Part shown: positions 47,579-53,479 of the stretch, piece by piece
How the letters are laid out: each line of letters starts with the position of its first letter
Position numbering within the stretch: the first letter of the stretch is position 1
Assembly (NCBI GenBank): GCA_018303405.1
Contig: JAGVYD010000014.1
Coordinates: forward strand, 73,350-137,349
Reading direction: 5' to 3'
Origin: Candidatus Woesearchaeota archaeon
GTDB lineage: Archaea > Nanobdellota > Nanobdellia > Woesearchaeales > JABMPP01
Length of the DNA: 64,000 nt
Translations under genes and position numbers: made by a program
Notes under the pieces: model-generated
What the model was told of the DNA's origin: nothing
Seen by the model: the letters and a program-made list of their open reading frames with translations, nothing else
Database searches by the model: none

Positions 47579-49072
47579 ATGAAGCTAAAAATCAAGGACA
47601 TGGATGTTGAAACAGGCGGCCCGCTGGTGGCAGTCATGCATGTCGATGATGCGAAGATGCTGGACTTCCATCACGGAGACAGGGTAAGGCTGACTTACAA
47701 GGACAGGAAAGCAGTATCAATCCTCAATCTTGCCGAAAGCAAGAGAAGCGTGCCAATTGGCAGCATCGGATGCTATGAGGAAGTCCTGAGAAAGCTTGGG
47801 GCAAAGGGTGGGCAAAAAGTGGGCATTGCCCTGGAAGAAAAGCCGGCAAGTGTGCAGTATATCAAGAAGAAATTGAATGGAGGCACCCTGACCTACAAGG
47901 AGTTTTATCAGATTGTCAGCGATATTTCCCAGAACAAGCTCAATGATATCGAATTGACTTATTTTGTGTCTGCATGCCACACAAATGTCATGACCTTGAG
48001 GGAAACCATAGACCTGACAAAAGCAATGATTGCGACAGGGGATGTGTTGAAGCTCAAGAAAAAGCCAGTCATTGACAAGCACTGTGTTGGAGGTGTTGCC
48101 GGCAACAGGACAACAATGATAATTGTCCCAATTCTGGCTGCAGCTGGCCTGACCGTGCCAAAAACATCATCCAGGTCGATTACCAGCCCTGCCGGGACTG
48201 CTGACACTGTGGAAGTGCTTACAAAAGTTTCCTTTAATGTTGATAGGATGAAAAAGATTGTAAACAAGATTGGCGCCTGCATGGTTTGGGGCGGCTCAAT
48301 CAATCTTGCTCCGGCTGATGACAGGATAATCAGGGTTGAGCACCCGTTGAGCATTGACAGCCGAAGCCAGCTGCTGGCAAGCATAATCGCAAAAAAAGCC
48401 AGTGTTTCGGCCACTCATGTCCTGGTTGACATACCCGTCGGCAGGGGCGCAAAGATTGAGACAATGGATAAGGCAAGGGACTTGAAGCGCCAATTTGAAG
48501 TGATCGGAAGGAGCGTGGGCATCAGCATCAAAGTGATAATAACCGACGGCAGCCAGCCCATTGGAAACGGGCTCGGCCCTGCCCTGGAAGCGAGGGATGT
48601 GATGTGGATATTGAGGAATGATGAGAAAGGCCCCCGGGACCTTAGGAAAAAATCTGTAATGATGGCTGGACTGATTTTGGAAATGGCGGGCAAGGCAAGG
48701 AAAGGGCAAGGCAAGGAAAAAGCGCTGGATTTGCTCGAATCCGGAAAGGCCTATAAAAAAATGCAGGAAATCATTAGGGCGCAGGGCGGAAAAGTGAAAA
48801 GGCCTGAAGACCTTCCGATAGCCAAGTTTGCCCAGGATGTTTTTGCGGCCAAATCAGGCAGGATAACCCATATAGACAATACTTATATCAGCAAGATTGC
48901 AAGGGCAGCCGGGGCGCCCAGGGACAGCACCGCGGGTGTTTACCTATACCTTCACAAAAATGACCTTGTCAAAAAAGGCGAGATTTTGTTCACCATTTAT
49001 TCCAACAGCAGGCAAAGGCTGGATTTCGCCAGGGAACAAACGAGATTAAATGTTGGATTTGAGATTAAATAA
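47579..49072 (+). CDS. deoA: AMP phosphorylase
   Basis: 497 residues. The N-terminal 80 or so residues form the AMPpase-specific beta domain that thymidine phosphorylases lack. The catalytic core has KKPVIDKHCVGGVAGNRTTM, KTSSRSITSPAGTADTVEVL and GGSINLAPADDRI, family hallmarks. The enzyme converts AMP plus phosphate to adenine and ribose 1,5-bisphosphate, the entry to the archaeal nucleotide pathway that continues through R15P isomerase and type III RuBisCO. Those two genes are not in the window. It lies between the AI-2E family gene and GMP synthase. Confidence 0.93.
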   Translation: MKLKIKDMDVETGGPLVAVMHVDDAKMLDFHHGDRVRLTYKDRKAVSILNLAESKRSVPIGSIGCYEEVLRKLGAKGGQKVGIALEEKPASVQYIKKKLNGGTLTYKEFYQIVSDISQNKLNDIELTYFVSACHTNVMTLRETIDLTKAMIATGDVLKLKKKPVIDKHCVGGVAGNRTTMIIVPILAAAGLTVPKTSSRSITSPAGTADTVEVLTKVSFNVDRMKKIVNKIGACMVWGGSINLAPADDRIIRVEHPLSIDSRSQLLASIIAKKASVSATHVLVDIPVGRGAKIETMDKARDLKRQFEVIGRSVGISIKVIITDGSQPIGNGLGPALEARDVMWILRNDEKGPRDLRKKSVMMAGLILEMAGKARKGQGKEKALDLLESGKAYKKMQEIIRAQGGKVKRPEDLPIAKFAQDVFAAKSGRITHIDNTYISKIARAAGAPRDSTAGVYLYLHKNDLVKKGEILFTIYSNSRQRLDFAREQTRLNVGFEIK

Positions 49073-49105
49073 TTTCCTGCATTCCGCGCCGCGACAATCC
49101 CATAG

Positions 49106-49114
49106 TTTTTTAAA
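49106..49114 (+). promoter_or_regulatory. TATA element deciding the GMP synthase start
   Basis: The sequence tttttaaac is centred about 27 bases before the ATG at 49137. It predicts a leaderless mRNA and rules against the longer in-frame start at 49050, which would overlap the preceding gene. Confidence 0.65.
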
Positions 49115-49136
49115 CTTGCGCCGCCTTTTCAGAGTT

Positions 49137-50936
49137 ATGGATAAAATAATAATTCTTGACATGGGAGGTCAATATGCCCACCTGCTTGCGCGCAGGGTCA
49201 GGCAGCTTGGTGTTTACTCAGAGATTTTGCCAAGCGACACACCTGTTTCAATCCTTAAAAAGGCAAAAGGCATCATCATTTCAGGCGGCCCGGATTCAGT
49301 TTATGAAAAAGGCTCGCCGCAATGCGACCCCAGACTTTTCACCCTGAAAATTCCCATCCTTGGGTTGTGTTACGGGCACCAGATAATGGCTCATTATATG
49401 GGTGGTAAGGTCTTGCCCGGAAAAACAAAGGAATACGGCCTGGCCTCGCTTGACGTCAGGAAAAAAGCCGGATTGTTTGCCGGCCTTTCCGCGCAGGAAA
49501 CCATCTGGATGAGCCATGGTGACTCTGTTGCAAATGCTCCGCCGGGTTTTTCGGTGACAGGCTCTACATCTGACTGCCCAATCGCTGCAATGGCTGACAG
49601 TTCCAGGAACTATTACGGCGTGCAATTCCATCCGGAAGTGACGCACACAAGGCACGGCATGAAAATACTTTCAAACTTTGTAGTAAATATTTGCAAAGCC
49701 AGGAAATCATGGAGCATGAAAAATTTTATCGAAAATAAGGTTAAAGAGATACAAAAAGAGGTTGGCAACCGCAACGTTCTCCTGCTCATAAGCGGAGGGG
49801 TGGACTCCACTGTATGCTTCGCGCTGCTCAACAAAGCTTTGGGCACAAAGCGTGTCTATGGCCTGCACATTGACAATGGCTTTGTCAGGACAGACGAAAG
49901 CAAGAATGTTGAAAAGGCATTCAGGAAGCTTGGCTGGAACAATTTCCATGCCGTTGATTCTTCAAAGGATTTCCTGAATGCTGTCAAAGGTGTCGCAGAC
50001 CCGGAAAAGAAGAGAAAAATAATCGGCGAGACATTTATCAGGGTGCAGCAGCAGGAAGTTGCAAAGCTGAAGCTTGACACTAAAAAGTGGATGCTTGGCC
50101 AGGGCACAATTTATCCTGACACTATTGAAACAAAAGGGACAAGGCATGCTGACCTCATTAAAACCCATCACAACAGGGTCGACCTTGTCCAGGACATGAT
50201 AAAAAAAGGGCTGGTAACAGAGCCAATCAAGGAATTATACAAAGATGAGGTGAGGGAATTGGGAGAACGGCTCGGCCTTCCAAAGCACCTTGTCTGGCGC
50301 CACCCATTCCCCGGGCCCGGCCTTGCTGTGCGATGCCTTTGCGTCGGCAGGCCTGAATTGCTTGAAAATGAAGATGACATAGACCGCAGGGCGGGGCTGA
50401 TCTGCGCAAAATACGGTGCAACAGCAAAAGTAATGCCGGTCAAGAGCGTCGGTGTACAGGGCGATGCGAGGACATACAGGCATCCGTTGATCGTGAGCAA
50501 AATAAATGATTATCGGCAACTCGAAAAAATGTCAACAGAATTGACAAACAAAATCAAGGAGATAAATCGGGTTATTTTGTCAGTTGGCGCCAAAGGCAGC
50601 CTGAATAATGCAAGTGTTTTGCAGAATTCCTTCCTGACAAAGGAAAGGCTGGACTTGTTGAGAAAAGCTGATGATGTTGTTAACAGCCATCTTGACAGGA
50701 AGATGTACACAAGAATCTGGCAATTCCCGGTGGTTCTGGCGCCCCTTTCATTTTCCGGCGGGGAAAGCATAATATTGAGGCCTGTTGAATCGAAAGAGGC
50801 AATGACGGCCAACTGGGCGCATTTGCCTGAGGATGTCTTGAAAAGCATAAGCAAAGAACTCCTGGCAATCAAAGGGATTGATGCAGTTTTCTACGATGTC
50901 ACGAACAAGCCGCCAGGGACAATTGAGTGGGAATGA
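49137..50936 (+). CDS. guaA: GMP synthase (glutamine-hydrolysing), single-chain
   Basis: 599 residues with all domains in one chain. The glutamine amidotransferase (about 1-190) has GLCYGHQ with Cys78 and FHPEVTHT. The ATP pyrophosphatase domain follows (LISGGVDSTVCFALL, the SGGVDS loop). The dimerisation domain ends DVTNKPPGTIEWE. The enzyme makes GMP from XMP, glutamine and ATP. Many archaea encode the amidotransferase and synthetase as separate GuaAa and GuaAb subunits; the fused form is the bacterial/eukaryotic arrangement and is also found in some archaea. An insertion near residues 305-345 (QQQEVAKLKLDTKKWMLGQG) lengthens the synthetase compared with the common 525-residue bacterial form. 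Confidence 0.95.
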   Translation: MDKIIILDMGGQYAHLLARRVRQLGVYSEILPSDTPVSILKKAKGIIISGGPDSVYEKGSPQCDPRLFTLKIPILGLCYGHQIMAHYMGGKVLPGKTKEYGLASLDVRKKAGLFAGLSAQETIWMSHGDSVANAPPGFSVTGSTSDCPIAAMADSSRNYYGVQFHPEVTHTRHGMKILSNFVVNICKARKSWSMKNFIENKVKEIQKEVGNRNVLLLISGGVDSTVCFALLNKALGTKRVYGLHIDNGFVRTDESKNVEKAFRKLGWNNFHAVDSSKDFLNAVKGVADPEKKRKIIGETFIRVQQQEVAKLKLDTKKWMLGQGTIYPDTIETKGTRHADLIKTHHNRVDLVQDMIKKGLVTEPIKELYKDEVRELGERLGLPKHLVWRHPFPGPGLAVRCLCVGRPELLENEDDIDRRAGLICAKYGATAKVMPVKSVGVQGDARTYRHPLIVSKINDYRQLEKMSTELTNKIKEINRVILSVGAKGSLNNASVLQNSFLTKERLDLLRKADDVVNSHLDRKMYTRIWQFPVVLAPLSFSGGESIILRPVESKEAMTANWAHLPEDVLKSISKELLAIKGIDAVFYDVTNKPPGTIEWE

Positions 50937-51046
50937 AAATCTGGTACTTTGAACTCATCCTGGTTGTTGCAACGTTAATGCCCATGTCTATCACCTCGGT
51001 AAGATTTATCTTACTATACATTTTAACCTTTCTGTTTTTATCAATT

Positions 51047-51134
51047 TCTCTGTTCTGAACTGTCTCTTTATTAGAAATATAACAGAAAAGATTGTTTTTT
51101 AACTAATTTGGCAGCCTCGGGAGAGAGGTGGAAA
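51047..51134 (+). repeat. Island repeat, copy 1 (partial)
   Basis: Shares with copies 2 and 3 the blocks tgttctgaactg, agaaatataacagaa and aactaatttggcagcctcg, then a short hairpin gcctc/gaggt with loop gggaga. The upstream half found in the other copies is not recognisable. It ends 15 bases before the TATA box of the gene at 51180. Confidence 0.7.
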
Positions 51135-51148
51135 CAATCTAAGAAAGC

Positions 51149-51157
51149 TATATAAAG
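51149..51157 (+). promoter_or_regulatory. TATA element of the DUF4258/DUF2283 pair
   Basis: The sequence tatataaag is centred about 27 bases before the ATG at 51180, predicting a leaderless mRNA for the two-gene unit. Confidence 0.65.
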
Positions 51158-51179
51158 CAACTTTGATGCATCCTATTAT

Positions 51180-51509
51180 ATGAACTATAAACACATTGTT
51201 ACAGAGAAGCTCAAAAAGTATAAGAAAGAGGATATTATCATAACAGAACATGCCTACGAACAGGCTATCTTTAGGAGTATCAACATTGATGAAATAAAGG
51301 AAAATATTATAAACCCTAAAAGATTGTTCTATGCTATAAAGCAGACAGCGCAAAAAGAGGGAGAAGAAAAATACGACTGCTACTTTGGTTATAGCAAAAC
51401 GCAGTGCCACAGATATGCAATTGTCATCAATGGCAAATGCATTGTATGCACAGCCATTAAAATAAACAGGAGGTGGCAGCATATAGCTGAGAAAAATGCC
51501 AAATTTTAA
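51180..51509 (+). CDS. DUF4258-like protein, putative toxin of a toxin-antitoxin pair
   Basis: 109 residues, basic. The segment IITEHAYEQAIFRSINIDEI followed by CYFGYSKTQCHRYAIVING and CTAIKINRRWQH resembles DUF4258, small proteins related to RelE/BrnT-type folds and often paired with a DUF2283 partner. The next gene overlaps by 14 bp and is DUF2283-like, which matches that pairing. The role would be growth control or plasmid/island stabilisation (inference from family context). It lies between two copies of a repeat in an accessory island. Confidence 0.7.
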   Translation: MNYKHIVTEKLKKYKKEDIIITEHAYEQAIFRSINIDEIKENIINPKRLFYAIKQTAQKEGEEKYDCYFGYSKTQCHRYAIVINGKCIVCTAIKINRRWQHIAEKNAKF

Positions 51510-51855
51510 CTTTAGTTATGACAAAGAGAATGATGACTTGTTCTTATTCAAGCCTAAAGCAAGTTCCAAGGGAAGCATTGAATTAGGCAACATAATACTG
51601 GACTTTAACACTAAAAAAGAGTTTGTTGGCATGCAGGTTATGGATGCTTCGAAATTCCTTTGTGATTTGGTAAAAGGGAGTGCTAGTGAAATAAGGAATA
51701 TTCTAAATAACTTGACAAGTTGTAAGATTGATACTAAGGTAAGGGGAAACTTATTGATAATTCAATTTTTGCTTATAGCCAATAAAAAAGAAATTGCACC
51801 GATAATTACAATGCCGCATATAATAGAAAGCAGTCCTGCATTAGCATATGCCTGA
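51496..51855 (+). CDS. DUF2283-like protein, putative antitoxin
   Basis: 119 residues. The start NFSYDKENDDLFLF, then GSIELGNIILDFNTKKEFVG, is the DUF2283 pattern (Y-D-x-E-x-D-x-L plus a later I-x-L-D-F segment). DUF2283 proteins are small, usually 60-80 residues, and commonly accompany DUF4258. This one has a longer C-terminal part (about 70-119) of unknown role. It overlaps the DUF4258 gene by 14 bp, so translation is probably coupled. Repeat copy 2 begins five bases after its stop. Confidence 0.7.
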   Translation: MPNFNFSYDKENDDLFLFKPKASSKGSIELGNIILDFNTKKEFVGMQVMDASKFLCDLVKGSASEIRNILNNLTSCKIDTKVRGNLLIIQFLLIANKKEIAPIITMPHIIESSPALAYA

Positions 51856-51860
51856 TAATT

Positions 51861-52000
51861 CTGCACTTCCTTCACCATTTACCTCATCCAGAACATCTTG
51901 AAACTAAACAGTCTTCTTTGTTCTGAACTGCTGCTGTAAGAGAAATATAACAGAATTAACTTAGTTTAACTAATTTGGCAGCCTCGATAAAGTGGAGGCA
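51861..52000 (+). repeat. Island repeat, copy 2
   Basis: About 140 bases closely matching copy 3 along most of the length: ctgcacttccttcac, catccagaacat, cagtcttctttgttctgaac, atataacagaattaactta, taactaatttggcagcctcg. It ends in a hairpin, gcctc/gaggc, whose 9-base loop (gataaagtg) differs from the other copies. It starts five bases after the stop of the DUF2283 gene. Confidence 0.85.
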
Positions 52001-52007
52001 CTAATGA

Positions 52008-52313
52008 TTACAACATTAAGAGAATTGGTACTATTGAACGGTTGCCTTTTTCCCTGACTATCTCCTTGATTTTGTCATATCTGTCCATATTAAGATAATA
52101 CTTCCAGCCATGCTCTTTCTTCTTTTTATGGCAGATTTTTTGTTTTACTAATGCCTCAAGAACAGTTTCAACCTTGTCCAAATCCTCTTTTGATATCCCA
52201 GATTTCAGGACATGGATATAAACAGAGCCCTTGCCAAAACAGTTTTGGTCAAAAAGTTTCTTAACTATTGTCCTGCTTATCCTTATATATTCGCTTCTTT
52301 TTACCTTAGGCAT
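52008..52313 (-). CDS. Small winged-helix-like protein
   Basis: 101 residues from ATG 52313. A minus-strand TATA (gtttatatatt, about 52333-52343) about 25 bases before it supports this start over the ATG at 52346. It is basic and mostly helical: KVKRSEYIRISRTIVKKLF, then KEDLDKVETVLEALVKQKIC and a possible beta wing, KKKKEHGWKYYLNMDRYDKI. This looks like a winged-helix DNA-binding fold, but no family is recognised. It diverges from the regulator-like gene at 52420; both lie between repeats 2 and 3. Confidence 0.55.
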   Translation of the reverse strand: MPKVKRSEYIRISRTIVKKLFDQNCFGKGSVYIHVLKSGISKEDLDKVETVLEALVKQKICHKKKKEHGWKYYLNMDRYDKIKEIVREKGNRSIVPILLML

Positions 52314-52419
52314 GGATACAATAGCAATTATGGAATATATAAACATGTGGTCTAAATTTAGTCCCTTATGAGCCTAATTAGAAACCTTTAAATAGAAGCA
52401 AGTGTTTATTGCATTCATT

Positions 52420-52788
52420 ATGGAAAAATCTGTATTTTTAAAGGAAGAGGGCAACACGCCCAAAAACAGGATATGGAGCTTTTTAATAGTCCATTCAGAA
52501 TATGACTATTCTATGAAAGATATTGCAAGATTTTCAAAAGTTGGCTACACTACACTAAAAGAAATTTGGAAAGAGCTCAGACTGAAAAATATAGTAGTCC
52601 AGACAAGAACTGTTGGAAAAGCAAAGATGTTCAGATTGAATCTTAAGAACCCTGTTGTGAATAAATTTACAGATTATTATTGGACAGTTGTAGATTCAGT
52701 TGTCAGAAGAGAAAACAATGTTGAAGAACAAAATCAGCATGGTTCGCCATCAATTGGCGCAATTCCTGTTTCTGCAAGGCATTTTTAG
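52420..52788 (+). CDS. Small winged-helix transcription regulator-like protein
   Basis: 122 residues from ATG 52420. A TATA-like cctttaaatag (about 52385-52395) about 28 bases upstream favours it over a GTG at 52402. The segment YSMKDIARFSKVGYTTLKEI followed by WKELRLKNIVVQTRTVGKAK is a MarR/ArsR-like winged helix: recognition helix then wing. The C-terminal 35 residues are polar and probably disordered. It could control its own module or the divergent gene at 52313. Repeat copy 3 follows ten bases after its stop. Confidence 0.68.
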   Translation: MEKSVFLKEEGNTPKNRIWSFLIVHSEYDYSMKDIARFSKVGYTTLKEIWKELRLKNIVVQTRTVGKAKMFRLNLKNPVVNKFTDYYWTVVDSVVRRENNVEEQNQHGSPSIGAIPVSARHF

Positions 52789-52797
52789 CTTCACATC

Positions 52798-52935
52798 CTG
52801 CACTTCCTTCACTAGCCTGCCCCATCCAGAACATTTTGAAACTAATCAGTCTTCTTTGTTCTGAACTGTTGCTGTAAAAGAGATATAACAGAATTAACTT
52901 AACTAATTTGGCAGCCTCGAAGTAGAGGCGGAACA
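52798..52935 (+). repeat. Island repeat, copy 3
   Basis: About 138 bases closely matching copy 2. The terminal hairpin gcctc/gaggc has the same stem but a different 6-base loop (gaagta). Inside are ctgcacttccttcac, catccagaacat, cagtcttctttgttctgaac and aactaatttggcagcctcg. It starts ten bases after the stop of the gene at 52788 and lies beside the integrase remnant. Confidence 0.85.
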
Positions 52936-52973
52936 GTCAAAATCAATTACAGAAACATGTCTTTATTTTGCTT

Positions 52974-53189
52974 CTAGGACGACACCTGGCTGGGTTTGGT
53001 GACATTAGGCGAGACTTTCAAGCTTAAGACTGCTTCTGTCCAGGGGGTGCCAATGCCTTCAACACTGCAAAAATCACGGAAATCCGGGATTAACTGCCTG
53101 TTTCTTTCTGGAATATCAGCTTTCCTGACCTGTGCTATTGCCCCTGCCAGCCTTTTGGGTAGATATGTATGTCTATTTCCTTCTTCATT
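52974..53189 (-). pseudogene. N-terminal remnant of a tyrosine recombinase/integrase
   Basis: The minus-strand frame between stops at 53190-53192 and 52974-52976 reads YLPKRLAGAIAQVRKADIPE then RNRQLIPDFRDFCSVEGIG. This resembles the SAM-like N-terminal (core-binding) domain of archaeal XerA/phage integrases. No ATG begins this frame; the nearest ATG (53188) is one frame off and soon stops. The catalytic Arg-His-Tyr domain is absent. So the gene is broken by truncation and perhaps a frameshift. It lies 85 bases from the 3' end of the tRNA-Ser gene, a usual integration target, and next to repeat copy 3. Confidence 0.6.
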
Positions 53190-53274
53190 TTAGCCCTCCA
53201 AAGAAACAGTGGCTATGAGTGTATTTAAGCCGAACGGCCATTTTTGGCTATCCGGCGTTTAAACTGAAGAAGGA

Positions 53275-53421
53275 CGCCGTGGCCCAGATTTGAACTGGGA
53301 AATCCTTTCGGAAACAAGCTTAATGGTACTGTCCGTGAAAACAGTGTTTCCAGGCTTACGCTCAATATACCCGTGCTCATGAGAATATGATTTGCGCAGT
53401 ACCAGGTTGTGCCACCACGGC
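53275..53421 (-). tRNA. tRNA-Ser(GGA), apparently with two introns
   Basis: 147 nt on the minus strand. Exons are 53421-53395, 53358-53348 and 53320-53275; joined they give an 84-nt class II tRNA. The acceptor is GCCGTGG/CCACGGC with discriminator G, typical of Ser. The T arm is CCCAG-TTCAAAT-CTGGG, the variable arm has TCC-GAAA-GGA, and the anticodon stem TAAGC/GCTTG carries loop CTGGAAA (anticodon GGA). Intron B (53347-53321, 27 nt) is at the canonical 37/38 site with a fair bulge-helix-bulge fold. Intron A (53394-53359, 36 nt) is near 26/27; its ends are ambiguous by up to three bases (GCG at both boundaries) and I could not confirm a full motif. Confidence 0.75.
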
Positions 53422-53479
53422 AATCCAGTATGAAGTTGATGCAATCATTTTATAAATTTAATGACTTCTTGAGTTCCCG

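Follow-up and report, generated by a model that had tools for sequence, protein, structure and literature searches.

A possible array of recombinase-less gene modules bounded by attachment-like direct repeats in a Woesearchaeota archaeon

The dif (pdif) modules of Acinetobacter plasmids are moved by a recombinase that is encoded elsewhere (PMC6449649). Among archaeal tyrosine-recombinase elements, the 3′ ends of protein-coding genes serve as sites, and a single site is used repeatedly in arrays (PMC6563490). Integrons with toxin-antitoxin cassettes have been reported in archaea, including Nanoarchaeota (PMC9668308). The route by which toxin-antitoxin modules lacking a transposase or integrase pass from one genome to another is an open question. 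Here we analysed a locus of small accessory genes and repeats in a Candidatus Woesearchaeota archaeon. We put the probability at roughly one half that its 51.0–53.2 kb region is an array of two recombinase-less modules, bounded by attachment-like direct repeats and served by a recombinase that acts in trans.

The window, which is the whole stretch of 64,000 nucleotides analysed, corresponds to C14:73350-137349 of a 1.6-Mb genome (23 contigs, 95% complete). Transcription factor B and the small genome suggest a DPANN-type archaeon. Within it, an island of ∼2.3 kb extends from the stop codon of guaA (50936) to an interrupted tRNA-Ser gene (53272–53422, minus strand). The island consists, in this order, of repeat copy c1, module A, copy c2, module B, copy c3 and the 5′ remnant of an integrase gene on the minus strand. 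The GC content of its left 1.8 kb is 33–37% and that of the neighbourhood is 44–55%. The left border gene guaA (49050–50936, plus strand) encodes GMP synthase, with the Pfam domains GATase and GMP_synt_C. A putative 43-codon open frame (50927–51058, plus strand) overlaps the guaA stop and ends within c1.

The original prediction placed three copies of a repeat after guaA, after the DUF4258/DUF2283 pair and after the pair with a helix-turn-helix (HTH) gene. All three are present as direct copies on the plus strand: c1 at about 51046–51138, c2 at about 51858–52005 and c3 at about 52795–52938. The gaps between stop codon and repeat are 109 bp after guaA, 5 bp after the DUF2283 gene and 9 bp after the plus-strand HTH gene. 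The predicted spacing of five bases was thus right for c2, but c3, which begins 9–10 bp past the HTH stop, measured 9 bp and not the predicted ten. Copies c2 and c3 share 90% identity over 103 bp (E 1.8e-31), and their matching unit is ∼140 bp long, counted from ∼10 bp past the preceding stop codon. Copy c1 is the most diverged of the three. It matches the others over 42 bp at 83% and over a 41-bp block, and it shares an identical core of 21–22 bp with them. The 21-bp core TTAACTAATTTGGCAGCCTCG is identical in c1 (51099–51119), c2 (51966–51986) and c3 (52899–52919), all on the plus strand, and it holds the only 20-mers that occur three times in the window. The core is invariant while its flanks diverge among the copies, and indels of 5–6 bases are found inside the repeat.

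A sequence model built from c1–c3 and a further copy on contig C17 was used to search the 1.6-Mb genome. Four places scored strongly (E 1e-18 to 7e-17). A doubtful fifth copy at C9:284810 (E 0.14) lies beside a ribbon-helix-helix gene, and a candidate at C9:285820 was dropped as it is inside an open reading frame. The C17 copy is located between an EamA transporter gene and ftsZ (identified by sequence). It precedes a ribbon-helix-helix gene, with broken PIN-domain frames on the opposite strand. The original prediction had set its cassette idea against ordinary repeats dispersed through the genome. With four clear copies and one doubtful copy in 1.6 Mb the copies are few, and an ordinary genome-wide dispersed repeat was therefore rejected. 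Outside this genome, the repeat was not found in related genomes, GTDB genomes, viral contigs, plasmids or phages; one match in a bacterial genome was judged to be chance.

Module A has two genes on the plus strand. The first (51180–51509) encodes a DUF4258-like protein of 109 aa, the toxin-type partner, with a weak Pfam match (18.6 bits against a cut-off of 25). The second (51496–51855) encodes a DUF2283 protein of 119 aa (Pfam 29.6 bits, above cut-off). Module A is putatively of the toxin-antitoxin type, a function read solely from these family names. Module B is a divergent pair. Its minus-strand gene (52008–52346) encodes a putative DNA-binding protein of 112 aa with no family above cut-off. 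The plus-strand gene (52420–52788) encodes an HTH-type protein of 122 aa with weak matches to PHROG 2030 (transcriptional regulator) and PADLOC PDC-M05A.

Both modules have relatives elsewhere in the order. Relatives of the DUF4258-like protein, 54–80% identical, adjoin DUF2283 genes in other families; several other families have it at 75–80% identity, and the closer relatives are always accompanied by DUF2283. The 112-aa protein has relatives of 64–87% identity in other families, where the gene pair is likewise divergent, and the 122-aa HTH protein has relatives in 156 of 353 genomes. Many families have relatives of module B at 72–80%, and the homology at the DNA level spans exactly 52008–52788, from stop to stop. 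The flanks of the modules vary between genomes. From these comparisons, modules A and B are horizontally mobile across families. The window repeat was not found accompanying module A or B in other genomes, and neither module was found in viral contigs.

In three other genomes the same modules lie between other repeats, all unrelated to the window repeat. In G007, two copies of a 34-bp repeat flank module A. Module B is flanked by copies of a 62-bp repeat in G049 and, in G185, by 43-bp copies of a repeat that is present four times and alternates with three nucleotidyltransferase/HEPN pairs. To quantify this, 250 bp on each side of a module were compared, with placements in the same loci as controls. 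Outside the window, 3 of the 23 modules had a direct repeat on both sides; among the 805 control placements, 2 did (Fisher p 1.8e-4, which is indicative since the threshold and flank length were set after the first cases had been seen). The other 20 of the 23 module copies had no repeat on both sides. Modules are shared across families, and the sites between them are lineage-specific.

Several of these loci have further features. The G007 island (C35:50500-66500) holds HicBA, ParE-type, Fic, nucleotidyltransferase/HEPN and DUF4258 modules, and its repeats are mosaic. A 101-codon gene of no known family is present there twice (93%); TTGGT seems to be the point at which it entered a repeat, and the island has this repeat in uninterrupted form elsewhere. 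The 62-bp repeats of G049 (C2, 5907–5967 and 6941–7002) are palindromic: CCAAAAATCGG...CCGATTTTTGG.

The G185 repeats encode the last 20–45 residues of a ∼90-residue protein, whose gene we call gene G. In related genomes with gene G, the repeat duplicates the 3′-terminal part of a protein-coding gene. The gene G product matched no Pfam family above cut-off. A search with the gene-G tail gave matches in 12 genomes, and in seven genomes copies stand around toxin-antitoxin-type modules, 0.8–2.6 kb apart. The 3′-end copies are 0.8–1.4 kb apart in G052, G066, G177, G178, G181 and G185, and G179 has a second near-full copy 2.6 kb on. Between the tails we found a PIN-domain pair (G178), a nucleotidyltransferase/HEPN pair (G177), Fic (G052), an antitoxin-like gene (G066) and other small genes elsewhere. 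The two tails have 26 identical bases in common in G181 and match over 53 bp at 92% in G052. Within one genus (G177, G179, G181 and G193), the same small membrane-protein gene follows the array and the modules differ. One nucleotidyltransferase/HEPN pair (89–90% identical) is first in the array of G177 and last in that of G185. The variable gene content between repeats that the original prediction proposed to look for is thus seen at the gene-G site, which is distinct from the window site and has a different repeat, and where several related genomes have different modules at one place. Gene G itself may move with the modules, and near-full second copies are present in G179 and G066.

An integrase remnant had also been noticed in the window, and it is real. 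The remnant, at 53013–53206 on the minus strand outside c3, derives from a tyrosine integrase gene, of which it preserves the 5′ end. It matches the 5′ part of an intact gene for a 407-aa integrase at C20 (C20:1697–2922) with 83% identity over 114 bp, or 66% over 53 aa at the protein level. The window tRNA-Ser, interrupted in its anticodon region, was found by ARAGORN with introns. It is homologous to the tRNA-Ser(UGA) by the C20 integrase and 96% identical to both ends of that gene. The default scan missed it, and ARAGORN with introns labels it Cys. Removal of two insertions gives a possible anticodon GGA, and the mature sequence has no clean cloverleaf fold; the gene may have two introns or be decayed. 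At C20 (1697–3091) the 407-aa integrase is intact, with a zinc-ribbon-like C-terminal part (four cysteines). It lies ∼90 bp inside the 3′ end of tRNA-Ser(UGA), and the element runs off the contig.

We propose three steps for the origin of the array. First, a tyrosine-recombinase element would have entered beside tRNA-Ser and degenerated until what remained of its integrase gene was the 5′ end; the remnant and the tRNA homology are observed, and the course of events is our reconstruction. Second, a site of ∼75–140 bp with the 21-bp invariant core would have been used repeatedly by small modules, each probably carrying one copy of the site at one end. The order now found is site-module-site-module-site. 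Third, a recombinase would work in trans, either from another element or as a host XerA-type enzyme. Since the modules are without a recombinase, one would have to act in trans. The repeats with their invariant core, the module ends near the repeats, the decayed integrase with its tRNA and the use of gene 3′ ends in relatives together point to traces of repeated site-specific integration (PMC6563490).

The repeats can also be read as protein-coding. On the minus strand, c1–c3 align without gaps as PPLxRGCQIS-stop, and their differences fall at third codon positions. On the plus strand, c2 and c3 read LPHPEH(L/F)ET(K/N)QSSLF-stop. Within this genome the two tails are suggestive of coding. Together with the broken integrase gene in the region and with the inter-module repeats of G185, which read as fragments of protein-gene 3′ ends, they favour a different explanation. 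The repeats may be decayed 3′ ends and downstream DNA of one duplicated, broken-up gene or element in a hot spot for accessory genes, with the modules inserted by unrelated events and no cassette mechanism. We regard this as rather unlikely. The period-3 variation in the window repeats is not significant (p 0.09), neither peptide tail has relatives in the 353 genomes of the order, and the repeat contains the 5–6 base indels. Moreover, the copies end at similar points and alternate regularly with the modules, and gene-G tails are found around different modules in seven genomes.

A MITE-like element, small, non-autonomous and dispersed, might instead have inserted several times beside accessory genes. 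By eye, there are no clear terminal inverted repeats or target-site duplications, and the genome has no parent transposon with such ends. Copies c1–c3 have the same orientation and stand at module ends within 1.9 kb, which does not fit this explanation either. What does fit is the defined unit of ∼140 bp in c2 and c3, its AT-rich composition, the low copy number and one copy elsewhere that adjoins another accessory pair. A comparable palindromic repeat of 109 bp exists in G282. There, in C9:105500-121500, it is present in three copies (5126, 10803 and 14799) in both orientations and is MITE-like. On balance we consider a MITE-like origin of the window repeats improbable.

The original prediction described a hairpin at the end of every copy, with a conserved stem and different loops. 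The arms gcctc/gaggc(t) with differing loops are present as letters in c1–c3, but a conserved hairpin was not supported. Compared with shuffles, the hairpin folds are weakly better (z −2.2, −1.6 and −1.6), and in the full repeats z ranges from −1.1 to −2.2 in c1 and from −0.7 to −1.1 in c3, and lies close to 0 in c2 (about −0.2). In a gapless alignment the right arm of c2 is displaced by 3 bases, and the C17 copy is without the left arm. An Rfam search of the repeats gave no match. Promoter, terminator or small-RNA elements duplicated along with the modules would account for the archaeal TATA-like ATATAAC and the short hairpin in each copy. This explanation is very unlikely: no T run follows the hairpin, Rfam has no match, the C17 copy has no hairpin, and no plus-strand gene comes directly after c2 or c3.

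We compared the window repeat with the sites of known systems. No pair of attC boxes (RYYYAAC ... GTTRRRY) was found within 40–140 bp on either strand of c1–c3. The folding z of these copies is −2.2 to −0.2. For dif arms (28-bp site with inverted 11-bp arms), the best match was 7/11, the same as in random windows, and inverted arms of the recombinase type are absent from the core. The core matches neither the adjacent tRNA nor a known gene; no tRNA or protein-gene 3′ end was found as its target, and no empty site was seen. The genome encodes five tyrosine recombinases, each below the NCBIfam cut-off for integron integrase (best 195 vs 265 bits), and the best-scoring one fits archaeal XerA about equally well. 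None of the five is tied to the window core. There is no integrase within the modules, which have two genes each. A tblastn search with the integrases of this genome found none in the module arrays examined, and gave one match in L157, unlinked to repeats. Integron gene cassettes with attC sites are the least credible explanation: archaeal integrons with toxin-antitoxin cassettes have been reported, as noted above, and lineage-specific sites with shuffled modules are similar, but no R''/R' box pair occurs on either strand of any copy, no strong attC-like fold was seen, and all five integrases fall below the curated cut-off.

The idea of a cassette system therefore holds in part. The few copies, the mobile modules, the repeats on both sides elsewhere and the differing gene-G arrays agree with it, but the conserved hairpin is not supported, and neither an attC or dif architecture nor a link to a recombinase was found. 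It is a tentative extension of the array reading that an undescribed cassette system is spread across the order, in which two-gene modules, mostly of toxin-antitoxin type, are taken up and shuffled at attachment-like repeats. In that extension, which we hold possible as a whole, the sites would often be 3′ ends of small genes and lineage-specific, and the recombinase would act in trans. The same module between differing lineage-specific repeats across archaeal families offers a concrete and testable route by which toxin-antitoxin modules could move.

Among known systems, tandem tyrosine-recombinase elements share with the window the direct repeats around insertions and the integrase remnant with an adjacent tRNA-Ser (PMC6563490), and with the gene-G tails in related genomes the use of 3′ ends as sites. 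In contrast to them, the window modules are ∼0.7–1 kb long and have no integrase of their own. Integron arrays resemble the window in having one or two genes per module, a site just past the stop codon and toxin-antitoxin cargo, and in sites that resemble each other within one genome and differ from those of other genomes (PMC9668308). Unlike integrons, the window has no attC boxes or attC structure and no integron integrase. Dif modules are similar in being small, recombinase-less, bounded by short sites and equipped with toxin-antitoxin genes (PMC6449649). However, dif sites are 28-bp Xer sites with two 11-bp arms that contain inverted repeats, whereas the repeat in the window exceeds this length and lacks arms of that kind. 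In the window, direct repeats with an invariant 21-bp core bound each module (c1-A-c2-B-c3). Our best reading is that this array works like integron cassettes or dif modules, at a site that is of neither kind.
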